A stretch of 64,000 bases of DNA from Geopseudomonas sagittaria (lineage in GTDB: Bacteria; Pseudomonadota; Gammaproteobacteria; Pseudomonadales; Pseudomonadaceae). The position numbers and the translations under genes are program-made. Below are positions 3,502-33,301 of the stretch, piece after piece; the first letter of the stretch is position 1; each line of letters begins with the position of its first letter. The stretch spans positions 1 through 64,000 of the forward strand of contig NZ_FOXM01000010.1 in the NCBI RefSeq assembly GCF_900115715.1, in the 5' to 3' direction. Under the pieces are notes generated by a model, which saw only the letters and a list, made by a program, of their open reading frames with translations, did no database searches and was not told the origin of the DNA.

Positions 3502-3509
3502 GCCGCACC

Positions 3510-3779
3510 TCAATCGGGGATGACTTCGGCCAGGACGATGCCGGAGGCGGCGTCGGGGTCGTTGCTCAGCACCGAGCAGTGATCGCTGGAGTTGACCAGA
3601 TAGAGGTTGAAGCGCGGACGTTCGACCAGCGGCTTGGCGTTGACCATGATGTCGTCGTCCATGCACCAGGTGAAGTGCACGCCGGGGTTGGCGCTGCGCA
3701 GGCTGGCGAGCAGGGCGTCGTCGAGCACGCCCTCCTCGGCCCGGCGAACGACGTCGTCGATTACGGCTTGGCTGATCAT
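3510..3779 (-). CDS. DUF6129 nif-linked small protein
   Basis: 89 residues, no Cys cluster or membrane segment. It sits between nifY (10 bases upstream) and lrv (8 bases downstream), the same position as a conserved small ORF in A. vinelandii and Pseudomonas stutzeri nif clusters. It contains one Cys and several acidic residues around HFTWCMDDDIMVNAKP. No function is known to me; co-transcription with nifHDK implies a nitrogenase-related role. Confidence 0.75.
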   Translation of the reverse strand: MISQAVIDDVVRRAEEGVLDDALLASLRSANPGVHFTWCMDDDIMVNAKPLVERPRFNLYLVNSSDHCSVLSNDPDAASGIVLAEVIPD

Positions 3780-3789
3780 GGCTGTGTCC

Positions 3790-4533
3790 TCATCCTGAAC
3801 TATCGGAAGTGAATCGCACGCGCTGGCCTGGCTCGGCGCCCATCGCCTTGGCCAGCCAGGGTGGTGGCGTGGTCGCCAGCACGCGCTGCAGCTCCTCGAC
3901 GATCTCGCGAGCCGGCTGCGCGCTGGCGTGCTTGATCGGGTGCACCCCGGCGCGGATCACCTTGGCCGCCGCCGGGCCGCCGATGCTGAGGGTGTAGAGC
4001 AGCTGGCAGTCGTGGAGCAGTTCGGCACGGCGGGTGTTGCGGTCGTCGTCCTCGCTGCAGGGGCCGGGCTCGCGCAGGTCGATCAGGCGGCTTTCGCGCG
4101 GCGAGATCTGGTAGATCAGAAAGCGCGCGCAGCTGCCGAAGCTGCCGTCCAGACGCTCGCCGCTGTTGGAGGCGCAGGCGATGCGCACCGAGTCGGGCAG
4201 CTCGCCGTCGCGGTAGGGCTGTACAACCGGCAGCGGCTCTTCGGGCATGCGCACGCCGCGGCCCTTGAGCAGGCCGACGGCACGCTGCAGCTGGCGCTCG
4301 GTGAGTTCCGGCTGCGGCGCCTCGTTGGGCCCCGGAGTCAGCAGCGCGGCACGCAGACGGGCCATGCGCAGCTTGCTCAGGCGGGCTTCGGTAATCGGCT
4401 CGCCGGTCACCGCCAGCAACGCGCGCAGCAGGCGCGCGGTATCCACGTCCTTGAGCTCGCGTGCCGCCAGGGCAATGCGCAGCGCCAGATGGCCCGGCAG
4501 TTGCGCAGGCCTGGACAGCGGTGGCGTGGCCAT
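3790..4533 (-). CDS. nifY: NifY, FeMo-cofactor/apo-nitrogenase binding protein
   Basis: 247 residues in two domains: an N-terminal helical domain (about 12-100) as in NafY, and a C-terminal NifX-like cofactor domain (about 115-225). The family binds apo-NifDK and/or FeMo-co during maturation. Where NafY paralogues in this window have DGHFG, NifY has DGSFG (Ser131), losing the histidine implicated in cofactor binding by NafY. Translationally linked to nifT (4-base gap). It probably acts on apo-dinitrogenase rather than as a cofactor carrier; that last point is inference from the substitution. Confidence 0.9.
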   Translation of the reverse strand: MATPPLSRPAQLPGHLALRIALAARELKDVDTARLLRALLAVTGEPITEARLSKLRMARLRAALLTPGPNEAPQPELTERQLQRAVGLLKGRGVRMPEEPLPVVQPYRDGELPDSVRIACASNSGERLDGSFGSCARFLIYQISPRESRLIDLREPGPCSEDDDRNTRRAELLHDCQLLYTLSIGGPAAAKVIRAGVHPIKHASAQPAREIVEELQRVLATTPPPWLAKAMGAEPGQRVRFTSDSSG

Positions 4534-14923: not shown

Positions 14924-16797
14924 GCTCGCCCCTCGACCTGCTCAAGGCGCGCCGCTTCGGCCCGCTGTTCGCCACCCAGTTCCTCGGCGCGTTCAACGAC
15001 AACCTGTTCAAGAACGCGCTGGTGGTGCTGCTGACCTTCCAGGCCGCGCAGTGGACCACGCTGAGCATCGGCGTGCTGGCCAACCTGGCGGCGGGCATCT
15101 TCATCCTGCCGTTCTTCCTGTTCTCGGCCACCGCCGGCCAGCTCGCCGACAAGTACGACAAGGCGCGCGTCGCGCGCTGGACCAAGCTGCTGGAGATCGT
15201 CATCGTCCTGCTCGCCGGCGCCGGGTTCTGGGCGCACAGCCTGGAGCTGCTGCTCGCCGCGCTGTTCCTGCTCGGCCTGCAGTCGACCCTGTTCGGCCCG
15301 GTGAAGTACGCCATCCTGCCGCAGCACCTGCGCGAGGAAGAGCTGGTCGGCGGCAACGCGCTGATCGAGGCCGGCACCTTCGTCGCCATCCTCATCGGCA
15401 CCCTGGCCGGCGGCCTGCTCGCCGGCATCGACGACGGCAGCCGGTGGATCACCGCCGCCTGCCTGCTGGTCGCCGTGCTCGGCTACTGGAGCAGCCTCGG
15501 CATTCCCGTGGCGCCGGCGCCCGAGCCGGGCCTGAAGGTCAACCTCAACCCGCTGGTGGAAACCTGGCGCAACATCGGCTTCGCCCGCGAGAGCCGCACG
15601 GTGTTCCTGGCGATCCTTGGCATCTCCTGGTTCTGGCTGTACGGCGCGCTGCTGCTCGCCCAGTTCCCGGCCTACGCCAAGGACGTGCTGGGCGGCACGG
15701 AAACCGGGGTGACCCTGCTGCTCGGCGTGTTCACCCTCGGCATCGGCGTCGGCTCGATGCTCTGCGAGCGCCTGTCGGGCAAGCTGGTGGAGATCGGCCT
15801 GGTGCCGCTGGGCTCGATCGGCCTGACCCTGTTCGGCCTCGACCTGGCCTTTGCCTCGCCGGCCAGCCCGCCGCCCGCGCCGCTGGGCCTGGGCGCGCTG
15901 CTGCAGGCGCCCGGCACCCTGCGCGTGCTGTTCGATCTGTTCGGACTGGGACTGTTCGGCGGCTTCTTCATCGTGCCGCTGTACGCGTTGATGCAGCTGC
16001 GCTCCAACCCGGCGCACCGCGCGCGAATCATCGCCGCCAACAACATCATGAACGCGCTGTTCATGGTGATCGGCGCCGGCGCCGCGGCCGCGCTGCTGAG
16101 CGGCGGCCTGTCGATCCCCACCCTGTTCGCCGTCGCCGCGCTGTGCAACGCCGTGGTGGCGCTGTACATCTACCGCCTGGTGCCGGAATTCCTCCTGCGC
16201 TTCATCGTCTGGATGCTGGTGCACTCGGTGTACCGGCTGGACAAGCACAACGTCGAGCGCATCCCCCTGAGCGGCCCGGCGCTGTTGGTGTGCAACCACG
16301 TCAGCTACGTCGACGCCCTGGTGATCACCGCCGCCTGCCGCCGGCCGATCCGCTTCGTCATGGACCACCGCATCTTCCGCTGGCCGCTGCTGTCGTTCGT
16401 GTTCCGCACCGCCCGCGCCATCCCCATCGCCCCGGCCAAGGAGGATGCCGCGCTGCTGGACAAGGCCTACGACGAGGTGGCCGCCGCGCTGGCCGCCGGC
16501 GAGCTGGTGGCGATCTTCCCGGAAGGCCGGCTCAGCCCGGACGGCGAACTCGGCCCGTTCCGCCCCGGCACCCAGCGCATCCTCGAACGCCACCCGGTCG
16601 ATGTACTGCCCATGGCCCTGTCCGGGCTGTGGGACAGCCCGTTCTCGCACAAGGCCGCCTCGCTGCTGGAGCGCCTGCGCCGGCTGCATCCGCTGCGCCG
16701 CATCGCCCTCAGCGTGGGCGCACCGCTGCCGGCGCTGGCCGCCGAGCCGGAACGGCTGCGCGCGCAGGTGCTGGAACTGCGCGGCAGCGTGAAGTGA
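14920..16797 (+). CDS. LplT-like MFS transporter fused to PlsC acyltransferase
   Basis: 625 residues. Residues 1-420 form a 12-helix MFS domain of the lysophospholipid transporter type (LGAFNDNLFKNALVVLL at the N-terminus). Residues about 430-625 are a second PlsC acyltransferase domain with CNHVSYVD and FPEGRL. In E. coli LplT is only a transporter; here import and acylation are fused, while Aas upstream carries another acyltransferase. The ATGA overlap with the upstream gene implies coupled translation. Inner-membrane lipid repair is the likely job. Confidence 0.85.
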   Translation: MSSPLDLLKARRFGPLFATQFLGAFNDNLFKNALVVLLTFQAAQWTTLSIGVLANLAAGIFILPFFLFSATAGQLADKYDKARVARWTKLLEIVIVLLAGAGFWAHSLELLLAALFLLGLQSTLFGPVKYAILPQHLREEELVGGNALIEAGTFVAILIGTLAGGLLAGIDDGSRWITAACLLVAVLGYWSSLGIPVAPAPEPGLKVNLNPLVETWRNIGFARESRTVFLAILGISWFWLYGALLLAQFPAYAKDVLGGTETGVTLLLGVFTLGIGVGSMLCERLSGKLVEIGLVPLGSIGLTLFGLDLAFASPASPPPAPLGLGALLQAPGTLRVLFDLFGLGLFGGFFIVPLYALMQLRSNPAHRARIIAANNIMNALFMVIGAGAAAALLSGGLSIPTLFAVAALCNAVVALYIYRLVPEFLLRFIVWMLVHSVYRLDKHNVERIPLSGPALLVCNHVSYVDALVITAACRRPIRFVMDHRIFRWPLLSFVFRTARAIPIAPAKEDAALLDKAYDEVAAALAAGELVAIFPEGRLSPDGELGPFRPGTQRILERHPVDVLPMALSGLWDSPFSHKAASLLERLRRLHPLRRIALSVGAPLPALAAEPERLRAQVLELRGSVK

Positions 16798-16913
16798 AGC
16801 GCCTCGCGCCGGGCCAGGGAGTGGCTGCACCGCTGGGCCGGTAGCGGCTCGCCCGGCTGCGCGACCGGGGTATGCTCGAACGCATGGCAACTTCGCTGGA
16901 TGAAGGAGTCGTG

Positions 16914-17837
16914 ATGGACAGCCCTGCGAATCTCACCCGCCGCCGGCTGCTCGGCGCGCTCGCCGCAGCGGCCCTGCTCGGCCCGGCGCTGGGACTGGCG
17001 CGCCAGAGCGGCCCGGCCACCCGCAGCATCCCTTCCAGCGGCGAGGCCCTGCCGCTGGTCGGCCTGGGCAGCTGGATCACCTTCAACGTCGGCAACGACC
17101 GCGCCGCGCGCGACGCCAGCGCCGAGGTGATGCGCAACTTCTTCCGCGCCGGCGGGCGGCTGATCGACAGCTCGCCCATGTACGGCTCGGCGCAGGAAGT
17201 CATCGGCTACGGCCTCGCGAAGCTGGGGCATCCCGCACAGCTGTTCGCCGCCGACAAGGTGTGGATTGCCGACGGCGCGGCCGGTCGTGCGCAGATGGAA
17301 ACCTCGCGCCAGCGCTGGGGCATCCCGCGCTTCGACCTGCTGCAGGTGCACAACCTGGTGTCGTGGCAGGCGCACCTGCCGACGCTGCTGGCGATGAAGG
17401 CGGCCGGCCAGCTGCGCTATGTGGGCATCACCACCTCCCACGGGCACCGCCATGCCGAGATGGCGCGGATCATGGCCAGCCAGCCGCTGGACTTCGTCCA
17501 ACTGACCTACAACCTCGTCGACCGCGAGGCCGAGCAGCGCCTGCTGCCGCTCGCCCGCGAACACGGCATCGCGGTCATCGTCAACCGGCCGTTCCAGCGC
17601 GGCGAGCTGCTGCGCCGGCTCGACCGCCATCCGCTGCCGGCGTGGGCAGGCGAAATCGACTGCACCAGCTGGGCCCAGTTCGCCCTCAAGTTCGTCATTT
17701 CCCATCCGCACGTCACCTGCGCGATTCCCGCCACCACCCGCGTCGACCACGTGCTGGAGAACCTCGGCAGCGCCTCCGGACGCCTGCCGGATCAGGCCAT
17801 GCGCAGCCGCATGGCCGCATTCGTGGCCCAGCTCTGA
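16914..17837 (+). CDS. Tat-exported aldo/keto reductase
   Basis: 307 residues. A twin-arginine signal (TRRRLLG, then a hydrophobic stretch to about residue 32) predicts periplasmic export. The AKR tetrad is recognisable: Asp and Tyr in DSSPMY, Lys in AADK, His in LLQVHN. The start at 16914 has GAAGGAG 6-12 bases upstream and places the Tat motif at the N-terminus. NADPH-dependent periplasmic AKRs are unusual, since the cofactor must be co-exported; the substrate is unknown. Confidence 0.8.
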   Translation: MDSPANLTRRRLLGALAAAALLGPALGLARQSGPATRSIPSSGEALPLVGLGSWITFNVGNDRAARDASAEVMRNFFRAGGRLIDSSPMYGSAQEVIGYGLAKLGHPAQLFAADKVWIADGAAGRAQMETSRQRWGIPRFDLLQVHNLVSWQAHLPTLLAMKAAGQLRYVGITTSHGHRHAEMARIMASQPLDFVQLTYNLVDREAEQRLLPLAREHGIAVIVNRPFQRGELLRRLDRHPLPAWAGEIDCTSWAQFALKFVISHPHVTCAIPATTRVDHVLENLGSASGRLPDQAMRSRMAAFVAQL

Positions 17838-18511
17838 TGGCGGAGTGGTGGCTCTACGGCCCGCGCGATCTGCTGCTGTTTGCGCCGCGTACCTACTACC
17901 GGCTGTTCGAGCTCTACAACCTCGAACTGTGGCCGCTGCAGCTGCTCGCCCTCGCGCTCGGCCTGGCAGTACTGGTGTTGGCGCGGCGCGGCGGCGAGCG
18001 GGCGGGACGTGCCAGCGCCGTGATCCTGGTGCTCTGCTGGCTGTGGGTCGCCTGGGGGTTCCACTGGCAGCGCTACGCCAGCATCAACCTGGCCGCCGGC
18101 TATTTCGCCCTGGCCTTCGTCGTCCAGGCGGCGCTGCTGCTCTGGTCTGGGGTCCTGCGCGGCCGACTCGCACCGCCATCTCCCACGCGGCTGCAGAAGC
18201 GCGCCGGCCTGGTCCTGCTGCTGTTTGCCCTGCTGGTCTTTCCGGCGATCGGCCCGCTGCTGGGGAGAAGCTGGACGCAGGCGGAGCTGTTCGGCATGGC
18301 CCCCGACCCGACCGCGCTGGCCACCCTCGGCGTCCTGCTGCTGGTCGGCGGGCGGCCGGCGTGGGGCCTGTGGCCGATTCCGGTGGCCTGGTGCCTGCTC
18401 AGCGGCACGACCCTGTGGGCGATGGAAGCGCCCGACTTTGCGCTGGCGCCGCTGCTGGCGTTGCTGGCGGTCGGCCTGGCCGTCGGCGGTGCCGCGAGGC
18501 GCTCGAGGTGA
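17837..18511 (+). CDS. DUF6064-like membrane protein
   Basis: 224 residues, six or so hydrophobic helices, short loops, Trp-rich N-terminus (MAEWWLYGPRDLLLF). The start overlaps the reductase stop (TGATG), so the two are coupled. I recall this layout for the DUF6064 family of unknown function. A role as membrane partner of the reductase is inference. Confidence 0.65.
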   Translation: MAEWWLYGPRDLLLFAPRTYYRLFELYNLELWPLQLLALALGLAVLVLARRGGERAGRASAVILVLCWLWVAWGFHWQRYASINLAAGYFALAFVVQAALLLWSGVLRGRLAPPSPTRLQKRAGLVLLLFALLVFPAIGPLLGRSWTQAELFGMAPDPTALATLGVLLLVGGRPAWGLWPIPVAWCLLSGTTLWAMEAPDFALAPLLALLAVGLAVGGAARRSR

Positions 18512-18596
18512 CGCCCCCGCGCAGTCAGCCGCCACCCGCCCTCTCCCGCCGCAGCCATCTTCGTGTTGCGGCTGGGAGGATCACGCGGAACGAGGC

Positions 18597-18830
18597 TCAG
18601 AAGCCAAACTGGCCGAGGGCGGCCATCAGCACCAGCGCCAGCACGGCGAGGCCGACGCACTGGACGTAGGTCTCCTCGCGCCGGCCGCTCAACCAGCCGT
18701 GGCGGGGATACTTGCCGAGGGTGAACAGCTTCACCCAAGGCCAGCCGGCCCAGTAGCAGAGGGTGCCGAAGAACAGCTCGACGAGGATATGGGCGAGAAA
18801 GCGAGCGACCAGGGACAGCAGCTCATCCAT
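18597..18830 (-). CDS. Small inner-membrane protein
   Basis: 77 residues with two hydrophobic helices (about 8-30 and 58-76) separated by a basic loop (KLFTLGKYPRHGWLSGRREE). A conserved hypothetical in Pseudomonas by general appearance. It follows the DUF2726 gene on the same strand after 16 bases. No function can be assigned. Confidence 0.6.
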   Translation of the reverse strand: MDELLSLVARFLAHILVELFFGTLCYWAGWPWVKLFTLGKYPRHGWLSGRREETYVQCVGLAVLALVLMAALGQFGF

Positions 18831-18846: not shown

Positions 18847-19575
18847 CTACCGATTCGCTTGTTTACCAAGCGGGATATAGCCCTTGCATGCGGGAAAACT
18901 GGAGCAGCCCCACAACTGTTTTCCCGCATGAGCTCCGCTCTTGACCGTGCGGAGTAGTGTCAGCCCACCACACTTTGGACAAACGGGCGCCTTATCCTGA
19001 GAGTCTGTTGCAGGCGACAATTGAGCGGTTGGATTCTGGCTCTCCATGTCGTTGGGTTTCGGCGCCGGCTCCAGCTTGATAACTGCCACCTGCTGAATGG
19101 ATTCCCGCACATCCTGAATGGTGTACGTGGCCTTCGCTACAAACCTGGCCAGCGGCAAGCCGGCTGCACGGCATGCCTCTTCCACGAAAGTGTCCCGCTC
19201 CTTGCGCCGTGCCTGTTGATGGGATGCGTCGTCCAGCTCAATGGCGCAGACGATCTCGAGGGTTTCCTTGTCGCACAACACAAAGTCGGCATGCTTGCGG
19301 TTGATTCGGTTCAGGGCAATTGTGCGGGCAGACCTGCCGATGCCGGTTCTCACCGCGAGCAGGTCTGCAAGCCGCACTTGGGCATACACACGATATTGGC
19401 CGCCAATCGCTTGCTCAAGCACGCCCAGAAATGAGCGCTCCGCAGGGGTTAGCAGACAATCCTTCTTGATGTAAGGAAACGGCTGGCCAGAGGCTCCTTT
19501 AGCGGATTTTCCCGCAGCAATGATTACTGCCATAAGCACGGCCAATACAACTACCGCAATCAGTAGCCACGTCAT
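18847..19575 (-). CDS. DUF2726 protein with C-terminal zinc ribbon
   Basis: 242 residues: an N-terminal membrane anchor (about 3-22), a DUF2726 domain (about 38-165, with ADFVLCD and AIELDDASH, resembling a PD-(D/E)XK-like core), and a C-terminal topoisomerase-type zinc finger with CPKCGG then C-x5-C (about 198-232). Proteins of this kind are thought to be nucleic-acid related, but no function is established. Membrane anchoring is clear from the N-terminal hydrophobic run. Confidence 0.75.
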   Translation of the reverse strand: MTWLLIAVVVLAVLMAVIIAAGKSAKGASGQPFPYIKKDCLLTPAERSFLGVLEQAIGGQYRVYAQVRLADLLAVRTGIGRSARTIALNRINRKHADFVLCDKETLEIVCAIELDDASHQQARRKERDTFVEEACRAAGLPLARFVAKATYTIQDVRESIQQVAVIKLEPAPKPNDMESQNPTAQLSPATDSQDKAPVCPKCGGLTLLRTVKSGAHAGKQLWGCSSFPACKGYIPLGKQANR

Positions 19576-19747
19576 CTAATTCCTCCATGAACACATAACA
19601 TCCGTGCCCCAAGTCTTCATTTACTGGATCGCAGCCACAGCATCGGCTGGGAAATGCAGGGTGATTGCATCCTTGGCGAAATGCAGGGCGGGACGTTAAC
19701 CCTCCCCCCAATGCTTGTCTACCGGTTAGACAACCTGCACGGTCAGT

Positions 19748-19796
19748 ACAAAACCAAAACGGCCGAAGCAGATCCAATCTCCGCTCCGGCCGTGGC
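19748..19796 (-). terminator. Terminator of the rnf-nafY operon
   Basis: Minus strand: ACGGCCG, 30-base spacer with its own pairing, CGGCCGT followed by TTTGGTTTTG. It lies 30-80 bases past the last nafY stop. Moderate strength. Confidence 0.6.
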
Positions 19797-19825
19797 AACT
19801 GGCGCTCAGGTCCTGCCAACGCAGT

Positions 19826-20545
19826 TCAAGCCACCTCTTCCTCCTCCCACTCGAACCGCACCCGCTCCTCCGCACTGCGCCCCAGCAGCTTGGCCAGCCA
19901 CGGCGGCGGCGAGCCGGCCATGACCTGCTGCAGCTCGGCCAGGACCTCCTCGGCGCGACCGCCATTGGGTTTCTTCAGCGGGTAGATGTTGGCGCGCACC
20001 ACCTTGGCCGCGGCCGGGCCGCCGATGGAGACGACGAACAGCACCTGGCAGTCGGCGATCTGCTCGACGCGCCAGGCGTTCTTGTCCTCGGCCAGATCCG
20101 CTTCCAGGGTCGAGCGGATGTCGATCAGCGTGCTGTCGCTGGCGCCGACCTGGTAGATCAGAAAGCGCGGGCAGGTGCCGAAGTGGCCGTCCAGCTGCTC
20201 GCCGTTGTTGGAGGCGACGGCGACGCGGATCGAACCTGCCGGAACGCTGGCCAGGACCATCGGCTGCGGCAGATCGTCGGCCACGGTCTCGCCCCAGAGA
20301 ATGCGCACGGCCTCCTTGAGGGCTTCCATTGGCGTATCGAGCAGGTCGACGTCCTCCTCCGAGCCGGCCAGGCCGATCTTCAGGTCGGTGACGGTCACCC
20401 CCTGCAGGCTCTTTTCGGTCAGCGGGCCGTTGACCTGCTGGTGGAGGATTTCCAGCAGCTGGCCCACGCTGGTGCCGGGCAGGGCCCGGGCGGCCAGGGC
20501 GATGCGCAATGCGGTGTCGCGGCTCATGCTTACAGGACTATTCAT
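19826..20545 (-). CDS. nafY: NafY paralogue 3 (apo-dinitrogenase gamma / FeMo-co carrier)
   Basis: 239 residues. The N-terminal helical domain (about 5-90) binds apo-NifDK and the C-terminal NifX-like domain (about 105-220) binds FeMo-co in A. vinelandii NafY. The cofactor histidine falls at His121, the same number as in A. vinelandii NafY, inside DGHFG. Of the three copies this is the closest to A. vinelandii NafY by recall (IAVASNNGEQLDG, ADLAEDKNAWRVEQI). The start has GGAG 8-11 bases upstream. Last gene of the rnf operon. Confidence 0.9.
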   Translation of the reverse strand: MNSPVSMSRDTALRIALAARALPGTSVGQLLEILHQQVNGPLTEKSLQGVTVTDLKIGLAGSEEDVDLLDTPMEALKEAVRILWGETVADDLPQPMVLASVPAGSIRVAVASNNGEQLDGHFGTCPRFLIYQVGASDSTLIDIRSTLEADLAEDKNAWRVEQIADCQVLFVVSIGGPAAAKVVRANIYPLKKPNGGRAEEVLAELQQVMAGSPPPWLAKLLGRSAEERVRFEWEEEEVA

Positions 20546-20630
20546 CAGCGGGCTCCTGGACGACCGGGACGGCCGTCATGGTGATTGGGTCGAGCACGGG
20601 GCAGGCAACACGGCCGGGGGAACATCCCGC

Positions 20631-21347
20631 TCAGGCGTCGTCGTCCGCCTCGGCGAAACGCAGACGTCGTTCGGCATGCTGGCCGAGCAGCTTGGCCAGC
20701 CACGGCGGCGGCGCGCTGGCCATCACCGCCTGCAGCGCGGCGAGGATCTGCGCCGCTTCGCCGCCGGCGATCTTCATGATCGGGTAGATGCCGGCGCGGA
20801 CCACCTTGGAGGCCGCCGGGCCGCCGATGGTGACTGCGTAGAGCACCTGGCAGTCGGCGATCAGGTCGCGCCGGTAGCCGTTGCGGTCTTCGGCGAGATC
20901 GGCCTCGCGGGCCGAGCGCACGTCGATCAGGGTCAGCTGCGCGCTGCTCACCTGGTAGATCAGGAAGCGCTGGCAGGAACCGAAGTGGCCATCCAGCCGT
21001 TCGCCGCAGTTGGAGGCGACGGCCACGCGGATCGAGCCCGGCGGCAGTTCCGCGAGGGGCGTGGCGCGCGGCAGCTCGCCGGGCACGCTTTCGCCCCAGA
21101 GGATGCGCACGGCCTCCTTGAAGGCTTCCATCGGCGTGTCGAGCAGGTCGACGTCGTCTTCGGAACCAGCCAGGCCGATCTTCAGGTCGCTGACGGTCAC
21201 CCGTTGCAGGGTCGACTCGATGAGCGGGGCATCGATGCGCTCGCGAAGGATCGCCAGCAACTGGCGCACGGGGACATCGGGCAGCACGCGGGCGGCCAGC
21301 GCGATGCGCAGGGCTGCTTCACGGCTCAGGGGCGCGGCAGTATCCAT
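20631..21347 (-). CDS. NafY paralogue 2
   Basis: 238 residues, same two-domain plan, His121 in DGHFG, and the segment GSEDDVDLLDTPMEAFKEAV almost identical to paralogue 3, so 2 and 3 are probably the more recent pair. The C-terminus is less acidic (FAEADDDA). GAGGAGG lies 7 bases before the ATG. Probable role as a cofactor or apo-protein chaperone; whether it serves the same target as the others is unknown. Confidence 0.88.
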   Translation of the reverse strand: MDTAAPLSREAALRIALAARVLPDVPVRQLLAILRERIDAPLIESTLQRVTVSDLKIGLAGSEDDVDLLDTPMEAFKEAVRILWGESVPGELPRATPLAELPPGSIRVAVASNCGERLDGHFGSCQRFLIYQVSSAQLTLIDVRSAREADLAEDRNGYRRDLIADCQVLYAVTIGGPAASKVVRAGIYPIMKIAGGEAAQILAALQAVMASAPPPWLAKLLGQHAERRLRFAEADDDA

Positions 21348-21368
21348 CGGTGCCTCCTCGACTGCGGC

Positions 21369-21767
21369 TTACGCCGGGTGGTGCCCTTCCCCGCCGCACG
21401 CATGCTCGTCGTGGGGCTGGCCGGGTGGCAGGGCGTCGGCGAGGAAGGCCTTGACTGCCCGTTCGGGGTCGCTTTCGCCAGTGGTGAGCAGGATCACGCC
21501 GCGCTCGCCGAGGCGCCGGGTCACGCCGTCGCCGGCACTGCCGGCAATCGCCACGTCCACCGCGTGCAGCGGGTGGCGCTCGGGCTGCGCGCAGACGTGC
21601 CACTCGTGCAGGCAGGCGTGCTCGTCCAGCTCGAGGGTGTAGGCGCCGTCCGGAGCCTCGCCCGGCCAGACGTCGAACACGCGCCAGCGGTGGGCGCGGC
21701 CGGCGTGTCCGGCCACCTGGCCCTGGCGATCGATGGCGACGGCGATCAGTCGACGGGGATCACTCAT
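21369..21767 (-). CDS. Short NifX-domain protein, His-rich tail
   Basis: 132 residues, one dinitrogenase-cofactor (NifX/NifB C-terminal) domain: AVAIDRQGQVAGHAGRAHRW carries the conserved H-x-G-x-A pattern near residue 21. The C-terminal tail HDEHACGGEGHHPA and the segment DEHACLHEWHVCAQ are His/Cys-rich and could bind metal. ATG at 21767 is preferred to GTG at 21773 because GAGGTG lies 8 bases upstream. It sits between nafY paralogues 1 and 2, its start next to the paralogue 1 stop. A cofactor or metal carrier role is inference. Confidence 0.75.
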   Translation of the reverse strand: MSDPRRLIAVAIDRQGQVAGHAGRAHRWRVFDVWPGEAPDGAYTLELDEHACLHEWHVCAQPERHPLHAVDVAIAGSAGDGVTRRLGERGVILLTTGESDPERAVKAFLADALPPGQPHDEHACGGEGHHPA

Positions 21768-21769
21768 GT

Positions 21770-22492
21770 TCACAGCACCTCAGCCGAACGGGAAAAGCGC
21801 ACGCGTTGCTCGGCGCCGTCGCCGAGCAGCTTGGCCAGCCAGGGTGGCGGCGAACCGGCCATGACCGCCTGCAGGTCGGCGAGGATGTCCGCAGCCAGGC
21901 CGCCTTCGATCCGCTTGATCGGGTAGATGTCGGCGCGCACCACCTTGGCCGCCGCCGGTCCGCCGACCGACACCACGTAGAGCACCTGGCAGTCGCGGAT
22001 CAGGTCGACGCGAAAGCCGTTCTTGTCCTCGGCGAAGTCCGCCTCCAGGGCGGAGCGCACATCGACCAGCGCCACCTGCTCGGCGCTCACCTGATAGACC
22101 AGAAAGCGCAGGCAGGAGCCGAAGTGGCCGTCGAGGTTCTCGCCGCTGTTGGAAGCGATGGCCACACGGATCGAGCGCTCCGGCAGCGTGTCGAGAACCA
22201 CCGGCTGCGGCAGATCGCTGTCCACGGTCTCGCCCCAGAGGATGCGCACCGCATCCTTGATCGCCGGCAGGCCGACGCTGATGTCCTCGCCGTCCTCCTC
22301 GCCGTCGGCGCTGGCGAAGCCGGTCTTGAGGTTGGTGACGGTCACCGTCTGCAGGCTCTCCTCGGTCAGCGGCCCCTCGATGCTCTGGTGCAGCATCTCC
22401 AGCAGGCGGCCGACGCCGATGCCGGGCAACGCCCGGGCGGCCAGGGCGATACGCAGTGCGGTCTCGCGACTCATGTTCATGGGGGTTTGCAT
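21770..22492 (-). CDS. NafY paralogue 1
   Basis: 240 residues from ATG at 22492 (GGGAGG 6 bases upstream; TTG at 22510 rejected). Same two-domain plan with the cofactor histidine at His123. The linker is longer and acidic (SADGEEDGEDISVG) than in the other two copies, so it is the most diverged. Follows rnfH by 30 bases. Confidence 0.88.
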   Translation of the reverse strand: MQTPMNMSRETALRIALAARALPGIGVGRLLEMLHQSIEGPLTEESLQTVTVTNLKTGFASADGEEDGEDISVGLPAIKDAVRILWGETVDSDLPQPVVLDTLPERSIRVAIASNSGENLDGHFGSCLRFLVYQVSAEQVALVDVRSALEADFAEDKNGFRVDLIRDCQVLYVVSVGGPAAAKVVRADIYPIKRIEGGLAADILADLQAVMAGSPPPWLAKLLGDGAEQRVRFSRSAEVL

Positions 22493-22522
22493 CAGTGGCC
22501 TCCCGGGCAAGCCAACAGCGGA

Positions 22523-22786
22523 TCAATCGTCGTCATCGTCATCGTCTTCGTCGAGCACCCGCGTGATGCGCTGGTAGATCTCCACGCGATCGCCCTCCTT
22601 CAGGCAACTGTCGAGCTTCACGAACTTGCCGAACACGCCGACCTTCTGCTTCTTCAGGTCGATCTCCGGGCAGTAGCGCAGCAGCCCGGACCGTTCGATG
22701 GCCTGCGCCACGGTGCTGCCTTCTTCGACCTGGCAGGTCAGCAGCAGCGGCTGGGGAGCAACGGCGTACACCACACCAACTTTCAT
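22523..22786 (-). CDS. rnfH: RnfH
   Basis: 87 residues with a beta-grasp (ThiS/MoaD-like) fold typical of RnfH/Rat[18 protein letters not shown] and [25 protein letters not shown]. The C-terminus ends in an unbroken run of seven Asp after Glu. Its role in the Rnf complex is not settled. Last of the seven rnf genes, 21 bases after rnfE. Confidence 0.9.
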
Positions 22787-22807
22787 GGCTTCACTCCTGT
22801 GCCGGAC

Positions 22808-23494
22808 TCATTGCAGAACCACCAGCTCGCCGTGGCTCTTGATCCTGCGCTCGGCGCGCTTGCGGTCGAGCACGCGCTTGCCGGCGAGCAGGAAGCCCAG
22901 GACGATGAACGCACCCGGCGGCAGGATGGCCAGCAGGATGCCCTGGAAGCCGGGCAGCACGGTGATCTCCAGCCACTGGAAGTGTGCGCCGAGCAGCGAC
23001 GAGGCCTGGGCGAACAGGGTGCCGCTGCCGAGGATCTCGCGGATGCCGCCGATCACCACCAGCACCCAGGTGAAGCCGATGCCCATGCCGGCGCCGTCGA
23101 GCATCGCGGGAATCACCGGGTTCCTCAGGCTGAACGATTCGGCGCGGCCGAGCACCGCGCAGTTGGTGACGATCAGCGCGATGAACAGGCCGAGCACCTT
23201 GTACATCTCATGCATCCAGGCGTTCATCGCCATGTCGATCAGGGTCACCACGCCGGCGATGATGGCGATCATCACCGGGTTGCGTACCTCGGGGGCGATG
23301 CTGTGGCGCAGCGCGGAGATGATCGCGTTGGTGCAGATCAGCACCAGGGTGGTGGCCAGGCCCATGCCCAGGCCGTTGGTCGCGGTGGTGGTGACCGCCA
23401 GCGCCGGGCACAGCGCGAGCATCTGCACCAGGGCGACGTTGTAGTCCCACAGCGCCGAGGTGAAGTAGTGCCACGGCCGTTTCGCTTCGCTCAT
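22808..23494 (-). CDS. rnfE: RnfE, membrane subunit
   Basis: 228 residues, six transmembrane helices, with [18 protein letters not shown] and [11 protein letters not shown], the signatures shared by RnfA/RnfE/NqrD/NqrE. Part of the ion-translocating ferredoxin:NAD+ oxidoreductase core that in Azotobacter drives low-potential electrons to nitrogenase. The start overlaps the rnfG stop (ATGA). Confidence 0.95.
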
Positions 23495-24168
23495 CGTTGT
23501 GCCTCCTCTGCGGTCGCGCCCAGCCGCGCGGCCTGGCGGACCTGGAACTGCAGGGCCTGCAGCACGCTCTTGACCACCGCGCGCGGGGTGATGGTGGCGC
23601 CGGCGAACTGGTCGAACTGGCCGCCGTCCTTCTTCACCTTCCACTGCACCAGCGGGGTGTTGGCCAGCGACAGGCCATCGAACGCCTTGATCCAGTCGCT
23701 GCGCGACACTTCGATCTTGTCGGCCAGGCCGGGGGTCTCCTTGTGGCTGAGCACCCGCACGCCGAGGATCTGCCCTTCGCGGCTCAGCGCGATCAGGTGC
23801 AGGATCGGACCGCCGTAGCCGATGTTGCTGACCTGGAAGGCCACCGCCACCAGATGGCCGTCCTTGCGCGCCGGATACACCTCGACCGCGCCCAGCTCGG
23901 CGTCCTGCACGGTGAAGGCGTCGCTCAGCGGGTTGTTGTCGTACAGCCGCTGCGGCAGGACCTGGCGCAGCACGGCGAGGCGGTCGGCCTCCTGCTGGGC
24001 GGTGATCTGCTCGTGGGTCAGCTGGTTGCCGAGCAGCAGCGACAGCGCTACCAGCGCGCAGATCGCCGCCAGCGACAGGCCCTGGTACTCGACCCGCGAA
24101 CGCCAGCGTTGCAGCAGCGAAGGCGGCGCGACGACCTCCTCCGCAGGGGTCAGCGTGTTCTCGCTCAT
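23491..24168 (-). CDS. rnfG: RnfG, FMN-binding subunit
   Basis: 225 residues, one N-terminal membrane helix (about 28-48) and a periplasmic FMN domain. GATIT near residue 185 is the covalent flavin attachment motif (Thr), seen as [12 protein letters not shown]. Overlaps rnfD and rnfE by 4 bases each. Confidence 0.95.
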
Positions 24169-25265
24169 GGCTTGCCCTCCTGGTTGACCGGATTGGTTTG
24201 CCGACCGATGGGCAGCGGCTTGCCACGTGCGTTGCGGCCGTAGGCGCGCGGCCGCCAGTAGCGGTCGAGCAGCGGGGTCAGCGCGTTCATGAACAGCACG
24301 GCGAAGGCCACCGCCTCGGGGAAGCTGCCCCAGGTGCGGATCACGTAGATCAGCACGCCGCTGCCGGCGCCGAACAGCAGCCGGCCGCTGCGGCTGACCG
24401 GCGAGGTGACCGGATCGGTGGCGATGAACAGCGCGCCGAGCAGCAGGCCACCGCTGGCCAGGTGGTAGAGCCCGCCGGGATAGCGCCCGGGATTGATCTG
24501 GTGGGCGATGGCCGCCAGCAGCACCACGGCGAGCAGCATGCTCAGCGGGATTTCCCAGTGGATGATGCGCCGCGCCAGCAGCCAGGCGCCGCCGAGCAGG
24601 AGCAGCAGTTCGGAGGTTTCGCCCAGGCTGCCGGCGCTGTGGCCCAGCAGCGCCGCCAGCAGGCTGAAGTCGCCGGCGAGGATCGCCTCGGCGCTGTGGC
24701 CCAGGGTCAGCTCGGTCTTCAGATGGCCCAGCGCGGTGGCGCCGCTCATGCCGTCGGCCAGTGGCGCGCCGGCGAAGGTGATCGCCAGGCCGTCGAGGAA
24801 ACCCGGCGCGCCGGCCGAACCCAGAGGCTGCGGCAGCGCCCAGCTGGTCATCTGCAGCGGGAAGGCGATCAGCAGGGCGACCCGTGCCAGCATCGCCGGG
24901 TTGAACAGGTTCTGGCCGATGCCGCCGTACAGCTGCTTGCCGATACCTATGGCGAACGCGGCGCCGCCGACGGCGATCCACCAGGGCGCCGTCGGCGGCA
25001 GCGACAGCGCCAGCAGCCAGCCGGTGAGCAGCGCCGAACCATCGAGCAGACGCGCCATCGGCTGGTCGAGCCAGCGCAGGCACAGCGCCTCGGTGGCCAG
25101 CGCGCTGGCGCAGGTCAGCAGCCACAGGTTGATCGCCGGCCAGCCGAACAGGTAGAGGCCGAACAGGGTGGTCGGCAGCAGCGCCAGGCTGACCTGCAGC
25201 ATGATGCGGTTGACCGAGGAGCGGTCGTGGGCGAAGGGCCCGGAGGCGATGTCTAGGCTACTCAT
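24165..25265 (-). CDS. rnfD: RnfD, membrane flavoprotein subunit
   Basis: 366 residues, about nine to ten transmembrane helices. [12 protein letters not shown] near residue 165 carries the threonine that holds covalent FMN in RnfD/NqrB. TDPVTSP (about 300) is another family signature. Start overlaps the rnfC stop. Confidence 0.95.
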
Positions 25266-26740
25266 GGCTTCTCCACCTCGCTGGACGCTGCGGTCTGGGC
25301 CGGTTTGGCCTTGGCGGCGGCCTTGGCTGCCTTGACCGCGGCCTTGGCGGCTTCCTCCGCCGCCAGACGCGCGGCGCGCGCCTCGGTCAGCTGGCGGATG
25401 TAATCGTTCTTGCGCGCGGCGCTGCGCCGTTCGTCCTGCTGGCCCATGGCGTGCTGGAAGTACTGCACCAGCGGGATGTGCGAGGGGCACACGTAGGAGC
25501 AGCAGCCACAGAGGATGCAGTCGCGCAGGCCGTAGTCGCTGGCCCCGTCGAGATCGTCGACGCGGGCGCGGGCGGCCATTTCCAGCGGCAGCAGGCCCAT
25601 CGGGCAGGCGTCCACGCAGCTGGCGCAGCGGATGCACGGCGAGGCCTGGTCGTTGCGCAGCTCGTGGCGCGCCAGGGCCAGCAGGCCGGTGGCGCCCTTG
25701 ATCATCGGCACCTGCGGCGAGGGCAGCGCCACACCCATCATCGGCCCGCCGAGCAGCAGGCGCGCCGGCTCCTGCTGCAGGCCACCGCAGGCGTCGAGCA
25801 GCAGCTGCGCCGGGGTGCCGATGGGCACCTCCAGGTTGCGCGGACTGGTCACGCAGCTGCCCGCCACGCTGACCACCCGCGAGATCAGCGGGCGGCCGTG
25901 GCGCAGCGCCTGCTGGATGGCGTAGACGGTGCCGACGTTGTGCACCAGCGCGCCGACCGAGGTGCTGCGCGCGTCGGCCGGCACCTCGCGGCCGGTGACC
26001 GACTGGATCAGCTGCTTGGCCGAGCCCATCGGGTACAGCGCCGGCACCGCTTCCACCTCGATGGCGCCGAACGGCTCGCTGGCCGCGCGCATGGCCGCCA
26101 GCGCCTCGGGCTTATTGTCCTCGATGGCGATCACCACCCGGTAGGCGCGCAGGATGTGCTGGATCAGCCGCGCGCCGTCGACGATGGCCTCGGCGCGCTC
26201 GCGCATCAGGCGGTCGTCGCAGGTCAGGTAGGGCTCGCACTCGCTGCCGTTGACCAGCACGGTCTTGATCTCGTGGCGGGTGCCCTGCTTGAGCTTGACC
26301 GCCGCCGGGAAGATCGCCCCGCCCATGCCGACGATGCCGGCCCGGGCGACACGGTCGGCGAGCAGCAGCGGACTCTCGGCGAAGGGATTGGCCGGCACGT
26401 CCAGCTCGATCCAGCGCTCCGCGCCGTCGCACTCGAGCACCATGCCGTTGACCGTCAGGCCGGAGGGGTGCGGGGCGAGGATCGGACCGATCTCGACGAT
26501 GCGCCCGGAACTCGGCGCGTGGATCGGCGCCGACATTTCCGCCGGTGAGCCGGCGATCAGCTGGCCCTTGAGCACCCGCTCGCCGACCCTGACCAGCGGC
26601 AGGGCCTCGGCCCCGGCGTGCTGGCGCAGCGGCAGGTAGAGACGCGGCGGCAGCGCCAGGCTGCCGATCGGCAGCGCGGCCGAGCGGTCCTTGTGGGCTG
26701 CGGGATGGATACCGCCGCGGATGCGGGCGAGATTGAACAT
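25262..26740 (-). CDS. rnfC: RnfC, NADH/Fe-S subunit
   Basis: 492 residues. The N-terminal region resembles NuoF/NqrF-like nucleotide-binding domains (GMGGAIFPAAVKL; LVNGSECEPYLTCDD); two [4Fe-4S] motifs lie near residues 375-430 (CIRCASCVDACP, CILCGCCSYVCP). The last ~50 residues are an Ala/Lys-rich helix. This is the soluble entry point for NAD(H). The start MFNLARIRGGIHP is typical of RnfC. Confidence 0.95.
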   Translation of the reverse strand: MFNLARIRGGIHPAAHKDRSAALPIGSLALPPRLYLPLRQHAGAEALPLVRVGERVLKGQLIAGSPAEMSAPIHAPSSGRIVEIGPILAPHPSGLTVNGMVLECDGAERWIELDVPANPFAESPLLLADRVARAGIVGMGGAIFPAAVKLKQGTRHEIKTVLVNGSECEPYLTCDDRLMRERAEAIVDGARLIQHILRAYRVVIAIEDNKPEALAAMRAASEPFGAIEVEAVPALYPMGSAKQLIQSVTGREVPADARSTSVGALVHNVGTVYAIQQALRHGRPLISRVVSVAGSCVTSPRNLEVPIGTPAQLLLDACGGLQQEPARLLLGGPMMGVALPSPQVPMIKGATGLLALARHELRNDQASPCIRCASCVDACPMGLLPLEMAARARVDDLDGASDYGLRDCILCGCCSYVCPSHIPLVQYFQHAMGQQDERRSAARKNDYIRQLTEARAARLAAEEAAKAAVKAAKAAAKAKPAQTAASSEVEKP

Positions 26741-26760
26741 GGCAATGCTCCGTGGTCGGT

Positions 26761-27285
26761 TCAGACGGCCTGGGGCTTGGCCCAGCGCCAGGTGTCCAGG
26801 CTCGGTGCCTGCGCGGCGAGGACGATGCAGTCTTCCGGGCAGGCGTCTAGGCACTTGCCGCAGCCGGTGCAGGCGCCGCCCAGCACGCTGTGGATCTGCC
26901 CGCTGGCGCCGACGATGGCGTCGGTCGGACAGGCGCGATAGCAGCGGGTGCAGCCGGTGCATTGCGTGGCGTCGATGCGCGCCAGCTGCGGCACGCTCAC
27001 CTGCCCGGCATCCAGGGTCACGCCTAGCAGCGCGGCGAGCTGCTCGGCCAGGGCCACGCCGCCGGGAGGACAGCAGGTAATCGCTGCCTGGCCTTCGACC
27101 AGCGCCGCGGCCGCCGAGCCGCAGCCGGGAAAACCGCACTGACCGCACTGGCTGCCCGGCAGCAGTTGCTCGATTTCCTTGACCAGCGGGTTTTCGTCGC
27201 TGACCGCGAACTTGCGCGCCGCCAGGCCCAGGCCACCGCCCAGCAGCAGGCCCATCACCGCCAGGGTCAGGATTGCCACCACCAT
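26761..27285 (-). CDS. rnfB: RnfB, polyferredoxin subunit
   Basis: 174 residues: membrane anchor (about 4-23), a four-Cys domain (CGQCGFPGCG then CC at about 47-71), and two ferredoxin motifs (CTGCTRCYRACP, CTGCGKCLDACP). It exchanges electrons with ferredoxin or flavodoxin. Placed between rnfA (41-base gap) and rnfC (20-base gap). Confidence 0.95.
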   Translation of the reverse strand: MVVAILTLAVMGLLLGGGLGLAARKFAVSDENPLVKEIEQLLPGSQCGQCGFPGCGSAAAALVEGQAAITCCPPGGVALAEQLAALLGVTLDAGQVSVPQLARIDATQCTGCTRCYRACPTDAIVGASGQIHSVLGGACTGCGKCLDACPEDCIVLAAQAPSLDTWRWAKPQAV

Positions 27286-27326
27286 CTCGCGCTCCTCGCC
27301 GGCCTCGGCCGGCCATCAGTGTCGAT

Positions 27327-27899
27327 TCAGATCAGGCCGCCGAAGCCCATGAACGCCATGGCCAGCAGGCCGGCGGTGACGAAGGCAATCGGCGCGCCGG
27401 CGAAGGCCGCCGGCACGCTGGCCAGGGCCAGGCGCTCGCGCAGGCCGGCGAAGATCACCATGACCAAGGAGAAGGCCAGCGCCGAGCCGAAGCCGAACAG
27501 CCCGGCCTGCAGCAGGCCGTGGTTGTCGCGCACGCTGATCAAGGGCACGCCGAGCACCGCGCAGTTGGTGGTGATCAGCGGCAGGTAGACGCCGAGGGCG
27601 CGGTGCAGCGGCGGGCTGACCTTGCGGATGATCAGTTCGATCAGCTGCACCAGCGAGGCGATCACCACGATGTAGGCGAGGATGCGCAGGAAACCGATGC
27701 CCAGCGGCTGCAGCACGTGGTGCTCGAGCAGCCAGCTGCTGATGCCGCCGAGGGTCATCACCAGGGTGGTGGCCACGCTCATGCCCACCGAGGGATCGAG
27801 CTTGCCGGACACCCCCATGAACGGACACAGGCCGAGGAAGTGCACCAGCACCACGTTGTTGACCAGCACGGTGCCGATCAGAAACAGCAGATAATCCAT
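27327..27899 (-). CDS. rnfA: RnfA, membrane subunit
   Basis: 190 residues, six transmembrane helices, [18 protein letters not shown] and [12 protein letters not shown], each with the Cys that binds the membrane-embedded iron-sulfur centre with RnfE. The start at 27899 ([15 protein letters not shown]) is the family's. First gene of the operon, 69 bases from the sigma-54 promoter. Confidence 0.95.
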
Positions 27900-27967
27900 A
27901 ACGACCCACCCACTTGGCTGACCTCTGCAGTGCACCCTTGTCGGGCGTGCTGCGCTGTGGGTGTATC

Positions 27968-27983
27968 TGCAGCAAGCGTGCCA
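27968..27983 (-). promoter_or_regulatory. Sigma-54 promoter of rnfA
   Basis: Minus strand TGGCACGCTTGCTGCA, correct GG-N10-GC spacing, 69 bases upstream of the rnfA start. Confidence 0.88.
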
Positions 27984-28031
27984 TGGCCCGGCGCGCCGAC
28001 GATCCGCTCGCCCAGGCCCCGGAAAGCTTGA

Positions 28032-29909
<1,878 letters not shown>

Positions 29910-31789: not shown

Positions 31790-33301
31790 ATGGAACTGAG
31801 CGTACTTGGGCAAAACGAGGCGGAGCAGCACAGTGCTGGCGGTTGCTCCTCTGGATCCTGCGGCAGCACGGACGATCAGCTTTCCCAGCTGCCGGAACAT
31901 ATCCGCGAGAAGGTGCACAACCACCCCTGCTACTCGGAAGAAGCCCACCACTACTTCGCCCGCATGCACGTGGCGGTGGCGCCGGCCTGCAACATCCAGT
32001 GCCACTACTGCAACCGCAAGTACGACTGCGCCAACGAGTCGCGCCCCGGTGTGGTTTCCGAGGTGCTCGATCCGCTGCAGGCGGTGAAGAAGGTCAAGGC
32101 GGTGGCGGCGACCATCCCGCAGATGACCGTGCTCGGCATCGCCGGCCCCGGCGATCCCTTGGCCAACCCGCAGCGCACCTTCGAGACCTTCCGCATGCTC
32201 AGCGAGGAGGCGCCGGACATCAAGCTGTGCGTCTCCACCAACGGCCTGGCGCTGCCGGACTGCGTCGACGAGCTGGCCAAGCACAACATCGACCACGTGA
32301 CCATCACCATCAACTGCGTGGACCCGGAAATCGGCGCCAAGATCTACCCGTGGATCTACTGGAACAACAAGCGCATCCGCGGCGTCAAGGCAGCGAAGAT
32401 CCTCATCGAGCGCCAACAGAAAGGCCTGGAAATGCTGATCGAGCGCGGCATCCTGGTGAAGGTCAACTCGGTGCTAATCCCCGGGGTCAACGACGAGCAC
32501 CTCAAGGAAGTCAGCAAGATCGTCAAGTCCAAGGGTGCTTTCCTGCACAACGTCATGCCGCTGATCGCCGAAGCCGAGCATGGCACCTTCTACGGCGTAA
32601 TGGGCCAGCGCAGCCCCGAGCCGGAGGAGCTGCAGGACCTGCAGGACGCCTGTGCCGGCGACATGAACATGATGCGCCACTGCCGCCAGTGCCGTGCCGA
32701 TGCGGTCGGCTTGCTCGGCGAGGACCGCGGCGACGAGTTCACCATCGACAAGATCGAGGAAATGGACATCGACTACGAGGCCGCCATGGTCAAGCGCGCC
32801 GTCATCCACGCCGCAATCAAGGAAGAGCTGGACGAGAAGGCCGCGAAGAAGGCGCGTCTGGCCAGCCTGTCGGTGCCCAAGTTCGACGCCCCGGCCGGCA
32901 AGGCGCATCGCCCGGTGCTGATGGCGGTGGCCACCAGCGGCGGCGGCCTGATCAACCAGCACTACGGCCATGCCACCGAGTTTCTCGTCTACGAGGCCTC
33001 CGCCAACGGCGTGCGCTTCATCGGCCACCGTAAGGTCGACCAGTACTGCGTCGGCAACGACAGCTGCGGCGAGAAGGAAAGCGCGCTGGCCGGCAGCATC
33101 CGCGCCCTCAAGGGCTGCGAGGCGGTGCTCTGCTCGAAGATCGGTTTCGAGCCGTGGGGACTGCTCGAGGAGGCCGGCATCCAGCCCAATGGCGAGCATG
33201 CCATGGAGCCCATCGAGGAAGCGGTGCTGGCGGTCTATCAGGAAATGCTCCAGGCCGGCCGCCTGCAGCAGGACGAGGCGCCGCTGCGGGCCAACGCCTG
33301 A
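31790..33301 (+). CDS. nifB: NifB, FeMo-co precursor synthase
   Basis: 503 residues. A radical-SAM enzyme that fuses two [4Fe-4S] clusters with a carbide into NifB-co; the SAM cluster cysteines are Cys67, Cys71 and Cys74 (C-x3-C-x2-C). The C-terminal ~115 residues are a NifX-like cofactor domain (INQHYGHATEFLVYEA), as in gamma-proteobacterial NifB. Start chosen at 31790 (GGAG nearby; N-terminal Cys-rich GGCSSGSCGS typical). First gene of nifB-fdxN-nifO-nifQ-rhodanese-grx. Confidence 0.97.
   Translation: MELSVLGQNEAEQHSAGGCSSGSCGSTDDQLSQLPEHIREKVHNHPCYSEEAHHYFARMHVAVAPACNIQCHYCNRKYDCANESRPGVVSEVLDPLQAVKKVKAVAATIPQMTVLGIAGPGDPLANPQRTFETFRMLSEEAPDIKLCVSTNGLALPDCVDELAKHNIDHVTITINCVDPEIGAKIYPWIYWNNKRIRGVKAAKILIERQQKGLEMLIERGILVKVNSVLIPGVNDEHLKEVSKIVKSKGAFLHNVMPLIAEAEHGTFYGVMGQRSPEPEELQDLQDACAGDMNMMRHCRQCRADAVGLLGEDRGDEFTIDKIEEMDIDYEAAMVKRAVIHAAIKEELDEKAAKKARLASLSVPKFDAPAGKAHRPVLMAVATSGGGLINQHYGHATEFLVYEASANGVRFIGHRKVDQYCVGNDSCGEKESALAGSIRALKGCEAVLCSKIGFEPWGLLEEAGIQPNGEHAMEPIEEAVLAVYQEMLQAGRLQQDEAPLRANA

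Follow-up and report, generated by a model that had tools for sequence, protein, structure and literature searches.

In Azotobacter vinelandii, NafY binds cofactor-less NifDK (apo-NifDK) through its N-domain and the iron–molybdenum cofactor (FeMo-co) through His121 (PMC8496260). NafY and NifY of this organism bind apo-NifDK separately and depart on cofactor insertion (PMC6016461, excerpt). The rnf1 operon of A. chroococcum and A. vinelandii is reported to end in NafY and Avin_50900 (PMC4465626, excerpt). For Pseudomonas stutzeri A1501, the excerpted account places NifA and RpoN boxes before rnfA in the run rnfA...rnfH–nifY2–PST1323 and reports a 21.7-fold increase of PST1322 (nifY2) and a 13.7-fold increase of PST1323, both located after rnfH, under nitrogen fixation (PMC2820453). 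Here, we describe a related locus in the first 64,000 nucleotides of contig NZ_FOXM01000010.1 of Geopseudomonas sagittaria (hereafter, the window). On the minus strand, from 22.8 to 19.8 kb, rnfH is followed by NafY-A, the small gene P2, NafY-B, NafY-C, and a terminator-like hairpin. Phylogeny marks the three copies (A, B, and C) as a mixed-age set of one ancestral-type, one Azotobacter-type, and one diverged member, and not as recent duplicates.

All three genes are intact, full-length, two-domain NafY copies, and a NifX-domain gene, P2, is interposed between A and B; on both points, the first-pass annotation of the window proved right. DIMCO_N and Nitro_FeMo-Co matched above their Pfam cut-offs in A, B, and C (114.8 and 60.8 bits, respectively, for A). 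The cofactor His in the core HFG motif is kept as H123 in A and as H121 in B and C, as had been annotated. H121, C125, D154, and C166 (A. vinelandii numbering) were invariant in 14 of 14 rows (4 A, 3 B, and 7 C). A phmmer search of C against the PDB returned 1P90 (core NafY of A. vinelandii) and 2KIC (N-NafY), then NifX. In the tree, the copies fell inside a 61-row group (support 100/98) with NafY rows; NifY rows lay outside it, except for one long-branch row (L030). The position after rnfH in an rnf operon, a criterion for NafY, is taken directly by A and farther along the run by B and C. The 15 coding stretches that were read for A, B, and C are free of stop codons. Simple Nei–Gojobori counts of nonsynonymous (dN) and synonymous (dS) substitutions yielded dN/dS values in the computed pairs of 0.15–0.28 for A, 0.10–0.25 for P2, 0.28–0.50 for B, 0.28–0.44 for C, and 0.13–0.44 for NifY. 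The absence of stops and the range of 0.15–0.50 for the NafY copies led us to reject pseudogene decay, which the annotation had named as a possible refutation. As a side observation on C, Thr replaces Ser124 in six of eight C rows (seven of the genus plus P. benzenivorans); Ser124 contacts homocitrate in simulation (PMC8496260).

The relationships of the copies were obtained from a NafY/NifY tree using 87 of 118 distinct rows, with matches not spanning the model dropped and rows from L094 on left out. An 18-row clade (100/99) united the C rows of the genus and P. benzenivorans, NafY of Azotobacter and Azomonas, and three B rows. The A rows from four species (100/97) stood outside this Azotobacter-type clade, as the sister (96/82) of L063, a metagenome-assembled genome that we placed in the Azomonas group since it matches G039. 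Joining A, B, and C in one clade cost 81 log units and was rejected by the approximately unbiased (AU) test (p = 9.5e-6), while B with the genus's C copies was allowed on full length (p = 0.38); all AU p-values are uncorrected, with two tests on full length and seven by domain. Same-letter copies were 73–97% identical across species (86% for A between the window species and P. oryzagri), as compared with 61–66% among A, B, and C within the window.

The first-pass annotation had read the nearly identical linkers of B and C as a trace of stepwise duplication. The likeness was confirmed: both linkers belong to the LAGSEEDVDLLDTP type, two residues shorter than that of A, and B and C are nearer to each other than to A in N-domain and linker. 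The LAGSEEDVDLLDTP type is common to Azotobacter and Azomonas and therefore marks a NafY type older than the genus, not local copying. A carries the longer FASADGEEDGEDI type of L063, P. tumuqii, Stutzerimonas, and Billgrantia. The phylogeny that the annotation had proposed as a check thus returned copies of unequal age that do not form one clade, and, for A, recent stepwise duplication fell with it. By placement in the tree, C is the orthologue of A. vinelandii NafY, and A is the ancestral, Pseudomonas/Stutzerimonas-type NafY in its usual position, rnfH–NafY–P2.

The N-domain of B falls with the Azotobacter type (100/100); B with A was rejected there (p = 0.0018), and B with the genus's C was allowed (p = 0.12). 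For the core alone, B with the genus's C was rejected (p = 0.008, uncorrected, one of seven tests), and B could be joined with C and Azotobacter (p = 0.225), with A (p = 0.244), or with A and L063 (p = 0.489). In the diagnostic columns, the N-domain of B held 0 A-state, 44 C-state, and 7 other cells, and its core 11 A-state, 9 C-state, and 4 other cells. B as a C-type N-domain spliced to an A-type core is possible, but such a splice is not needed, because most of these core states look ancestral (outside rows have them too) and the latter core placements are all allowed. Most simply, B would have diverged from the Azotobacter-type stem at an early point and changed rapidly thereafter.

The B rows have the longest stem in the tree and reach the highest dN/dS among the three copies. 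Eleven residues shared by them are each present in at most one of 57 other NafY rows. Position 173 is Thr in all three carrier species and Ser in 57 of 57 other NafY rows, and Lys191 has become Met, Met, and Leu across the three species. Ser173 lies on a path between His121 and Cys196, which nuclear magnetic resonance places near FeMo-co (PMC8496260). The clustering of B changes near the cofactor was not significant, with two of six B-specific core residues (160 and 173) against about 1.2 expected; the near-FeMo-co set, counted by hand, comprises about 27 of 132 core positions (PMC8496260). It is conceivable, although improbable in our view, that B is a re-purposed escort. Such a protein would keep the NifDK docking and the cofactor His, and the altered residues lining its cofactor path might let it bind the cluster in another state (e.g., a precursor or damaged cofactor); P2, with its extra His, may supply it with metal or with a cluster. 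On this view, an organism with a single nitrogenase would use the array as a small relay or for quality control of FeMo-co.

P2 scored 21.6 bits against Pfam Nitro_FeMo-Co, below the gathering cut-off of 26.3, and had no match to TIGR02663 (NifX) up to E = 1. It is predicted to have the NifX/NafY-core fold (as 1P90/NifX). Residues His56, His59, His67, His70, His121, and Cys126 are invariant in 14 P2 homologues, and three Azotobacter rows are 73–75% identical to P2. By position, P2 is the homologue of Avin_50900 and PST1323. P2 is already known as a gene of the standard operon, A–P2 is the standard order, and B and C are the additions.

We infer that the array is co-transcribed as an extension of the rnfABCDGEH operon (Table 1). 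The intergenic gaps are 21 (rnfE–rnfH), 30 (rnfH–A), −4 (A–P2), 21 (P2–B), and 85 bases (B–C), with P2 read from a GTG that gives a four-base overlap with the end of A. A plausible ribosome site precedes every gene of the array. Downstream of C lies a hairpin with a T-rich tail; sites of this kind are absent from within the array. Because terminator-like sites numbered two in 19500–28400 against a shuffle mean of 3.0, this argument is one of position, not of number. With one mismatch allowed, −24/−12-like sites numbered four in the window (2.0 expected), and a fixed-core pattern with stricter spacing found no site before rnfA. TGT-N10-ACA occurred five times (6.2 expected by chance), every time before nifH, rnfA/nifL, or nifB. 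The true nifL start probably lies further inside the longest nifL open reading frame (ORF) than the element listed in Table 1. The rnfA, rnfB, rnfC, and rnfE genes were named through NCBIfam matches, and rnfD and rnfG through tblastn to relatives and gene order. Among the neighbors, the C-terminus of RnfH (22523–22560) is an acidic run of nearly all Asp, a DUF2726 protein with a zinc-ribbon-like tail (below the Pfam cut-off) lies just past the array (18847–19575), and an LRV_FeS leucine-rich-variant protein (2770–3666) adjoins nifY.

Table 1. Features of the array and related elements in the window.
Feature	Position	Strand	Description	Basis
NafY-A	21770..22492	-	Pseudomonas/Stutzerimonas-type NafY, directly 3' of rnfH	domains, His123, tree
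P2	21369..21773	-	single-domain protein of predicted NifX fold, extra conserved His and His/Cys tail	homologue of Avin_50900 by position
NafY-B	20631..21347	-	Azotobacter-type N-domain and linker, diverged core, fastest-evolving copy	
NafY-C	19826..20545	-	assigned as orthologue of A. vinelandii NafY	
Intrinsic-terminator-like hairpin	19759..19793	-	14 pairs, T-rich tail; just 3' of NafY-C	
rnfH	22523..22786	-	last rnf gene ahead of the array	
rnfA, B, C, D, G, E	22808..27935	-	gene run ending in the array	
-24/-12-like site	27968..27983	-	before rnfA; one mismatch to the consensus	
NifA-type upstream element TGT-N10-ACA	28090..28105	+	rnfA–nifL region; start of the longest nifL ORF	
NifY	3790..4533	-	separate two-domain relative after nifHDK	
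NifB with C-terminal NifX-like domain	31790..33301	+		

Eight Geopseudomonas genomes were examined, of which seven were DIMCO_N-positive. P. linyingensis and P. oryzagri belong to the Linyingensis clade, g_Pseudomonas_K, proposed as Geopseudomonas (PMC10797017, excerpt). The order A–P2–B–C was found in two of the seven (the window genome and P. oryzagri), A–P2–C in P. linyingensis, P2–C in G077, and C alone in G025, G050, and G061; C is thus present in all seven. The complete set also occurs in P. benzenivorans, outside the genus by rpoB. The rpoB tree of 26 genomes joined the window genome to P. linyingensis (100/100) and placed P. benzenivorans beside P. tumuqii (100/99), beyond the limits of the genus. 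A contig scan covering the best 78 distinct loci of 186 relatives, in which other tandem sets could be missed, detected tandem full-length NafY only in L047 (P. benzenivorans), L048, and L052. The overlapping samples of 398 (family), 369 (class), and 390 (order) genomes contained 23, 24 (23 over the cut-off), and 16 genomes with DIMCO_N, respectively, and more than two DIMCO_N genes over the cut-off only in G000, G009 (P. oryzagri), and G085 (P. linyingensis). The extra matches of G224 are two contig-end pieces, taken as one gene, and the third match of G1010 is below the cut-off. One tally includes a single genome twice, as G402 and G1010; in that tally, the G050 match is a 29-residue stretch (E 0.008).

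At the position of B, P. linyingensis has the same leader 3' of P2, followed by a truncated NafY start. This remnant matched the window B over 54 bases (score 73, 47/54; best of 50 shuffles 31), and its best match was B of P. oryzagri (score 88, 56/64). The leaders ahead of C in strain K1 (L050) and G077 matched each other (score 61, shuffled maximum 26); against the window leader, neither was significant (25 vs shuffled 34 and 29 vs 31). A remnant of the tail of A in G077 is only suggestive, with a score of 29 vs shuffled 25 with the window A and no match to A of the nearer relative P. oryzagri (23 vs shuffled 29). The set was probably present early in the genus and later trimmed in several lines. 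This is the shortest account because A–P2–B–C occurs on both sides of the rpoB root of the genus; alternatively, recombination could have spread the set. The first-pass annotation had named an ancient, already described set shared by all close relatives as a finding that would speak against it. The arrangement is indeed old in the relatives, but only some of them kept all of it, and we found no description in open-licence papers.

The rnf–naf–nif block moves by recombination, as indicated by its low dS between the window and P. benzenivorans (0.09 for A, 0.14 for P2, 0.12 for B, 0.21 for C, and 0.08–0.12 for nifH, nifD, and nifK) as compared with 0.42 for rpoB. At rnfE, A, P2, and C, the window–P. 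benzenivorans values (0.09, 0.09, 0.14, and 0.21) are below those of window–P. linyingensis (0.20, 0.22, 0.24, and 0.30), while at rnfG, rnfD, nifL, and nifY, the window is nearer to this sister species than to P. benzenivorans. The nifL of P. benzenivorans is at a dS of 0.20 to P. tumuqii and 0.44 to the window. We read these values as a transfer of the block between the genus and the P. benzenivorans line, most likely from the former to the latter. The 12.9–18.3 kb genes of the window are missing in P. benzenivorans. The region 12749–18611, between nifH and the naf array, holds an acyl-ACP ligase/acyltransferase (aas), an aldo/keto reductase, and their neighbors; it was matched throughout in P. 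linyingensis, the matches in P. oryzagri and G077 extended up to 16.8 kb, and in P. benzenivorans the region was missing between the same genes. RnfA of the window (27327–27935) is 96.9% identical to that of strain K1 and 87.4% to that of P. linyingensis, although the latter is the sister species, which points to local recombination. In a side comparison of NifY rows (window 3790–4533; L044, L047, L046, and L038–L040), NifY of the window, P. linyingensis, and P. benzenivorans grouped with Pseudomonas/Stutzerimonas, and NifY of four other genus genomes with Azomonas. L060 (P. syringae GR12-2) carries rnf, NafY, NifY, and a P2 83–85% identical to that of the window; in the rpoB tree, it falls with P. 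benzenivorans and P. tumuqii (81/99), and its species name may be doubtful.

Two accounts of the origin of the copies were weighed against these results. If a single NafY gene had recently been duplicated step by step in this lineage, a tandem layout and a common linker and N-domain type in B and C would be expected, and the full-length and N-domain tests allow B with the genus's C. Nevertheless, this account is very unlikely: the AU test on A, B, and C already refutes it for A, which groups with L063 outside the Azotobacter type, the core test rejects B with the genus's C, and identity is higher across species than within the window. The second question, which does not compete with the functional readings, is whether A entered the genus horizontally, with a Stutzerimonas-like or Azomonas-group organism as its donor, or was kept from an ancestor with the A and C types. 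The sister position of L063, whose RnfC groups with Stutzerimonas (Shimodaira–Hasegawa-like approximate likelihood ratio test 90) and whose NifL groups with Azomonas (98), the split of the NifY rows between the Pseudomonas and Azomonas sides, and the clear mobility of nif/rnf segments in the group all point to transfer. Against this, both the position of A behind rnfH and its pairing with P2 are the usual ones, and carriers of A fall on either side of the rpoB root of the genus (window/P. linyingensis and P. oryzagri). We regard transfer as a serious candidate that falls somewhat short of an even chance.

With the above results in hand, our preferred reading, at a probability of roughly 0.6, is that the array extends the rnfABCDGEH operon with one NifX-fold partner and with three functional NafY escorts that differ in age, serve the Mo nitrogenase, and are partly redundant. 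The N-domains of A, B, and C would dock on cofactor-less NifDK, their cores would carry FeMo-co through the conserved His, and the proteins would leave once the cofactor is inserted. C may be the core copy, since every DIMCO_N-positive genome of the genus examined has it, with A as a second escort and B as the copy most free to change; P2 may act in this operon as a small carrier of metal or clusters. Service to the Mo enzyme is suggested by the lack of any AnfG_VnfG (PF03139) match in the genome, this being the only subunit searched for; the search was positive in one of 14 genomes, Methanosarcina acetivorans, which served as the control. The genome is rated 99.77% complete; of its seven Nitro_FeMo-Co matches, six lie in the window, and the other, taken to be NifX, is on another contig.

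Several points weigh against this reading. Apo-NifDK of A. vinelandii is not bound by NafY and NifY at the same time (PMC6016461, excerpt), and extra copies might, by analogy, compete rather than help. The promoter-type motifs are not above chance frequency by number, and only their positions argue for them. For the branching point of B, the full-length and core tests differ. On the P. linyingensis remnant, the C copies of K1 (81, 54/63) and P. oryzagri (75, 54/62) outscore the window B (73), so the identity of the remnant as B rests on place more than on letters. Relatives repeatedly lack A, P2, and B, which also fits a useless surplus. The extra copies would then add only dosage, or nothing, and be under loss, as the uneven retention in the seven genomes of the genus, the fast evolution of B, and the truncated NafY in P. 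linyingensis would suggest. We consider this surplus unlikely, although the strongest of the functional rivals: the 15 coding stretches are intact with dN/dS below 0.5 in the computed pairs, A is well conserved up to P. oryzagri, and A, P2, and B were all included in the exchange with P. benzenivorans. A division of labor among the copies by nitrogenase or cofactor (Mo, V, and Fe-only) is barely credible. A. vinelandii NafY, VnfY, and AnfO are discussed as sorting or escorting different cofactors (PMC11938142, excerpt), but here the search for AnfG/VnfG was negative in a nearly complete (99.8%) genome, and His121, Cys125, and Asp154 are identical in all copies. The first-pass annotation had suggested specialization and a check for vnf/anf systems; on this AnfG/VnfG search, specialization for V or Fe-only cofactors has no support, and it is conceivable only within the Mo nitrogenase.

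Proteins of the NafY, NifY, and NifX families overlap in diazotrophs, and the extent of their mutual replacement is still being asked; a nifX nafY double mutant of the cyanobacterium Leptolyngbya was made to examine redundancy (PMC6428710, excerpt). Here, one organism with no sign of alternative nitrogenases holds three natural NafY variants of differing age side by side. Relatives without one, two, or all of the extra genes form a comparison set for the roles of the linker, the cofactor path, and P2, and the array copies offer natural part choices for engineering nitrogenase assembly.

The array is a variation on the known NafY system, of which relatives usually carry one copy. A multi-copy NafY array was not described in the titles and abstract starts of open-licence papers among the matches listed; a "nafY2" string in the excerpt of PMC6345978 was a citation mark, not a gene. 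Dechloromonas aromatica RCB is similar in having two genes named NafY in one nif region, but these are not in tandem: NafY-1 lies by nifB and NafY-2 after nifHDKT (PMC2907700, excerpt). From its place after nifHDKT, NafY-2 may be what others call NifY. P2 resembles Avin_50900/Achr_39330 ("nitrogen-fixation related protein") in position and sequence (PMC4465626, excerpt), although Avin_50900 follows a C-type NafY in Azotobacter and P2 here follows the A type. P2 differs from NifX (TIGR02663; PDB 9IAN) in lacking a TIGR02663 match and in its further invariant His and Cys residues. The nifY2–PST1323 pair of P. stutzeri A1501, in one NifA/RpoN operon, is like rnfH–A–P2 here (PMC2820453, excerpt). 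From position and from Stutzerimonas loci such as L064, PST1322–PST1323 would be A–P2. The genes listed next in the excerpt are PST1324, PST1325, and then nifH, with no B or C (PMC2820453). A. vinelandii NafY (Avin_50910; 2KIC, 1P90) has the two domains, the His121 motif, and the place after rnfH in common with the array; C is 78% identical to it and falls in the same clade. One copy there stands against three divergent copies here, of which A has a linker of the other type, two residues longer, and B has S173T and the loss of Lys191.

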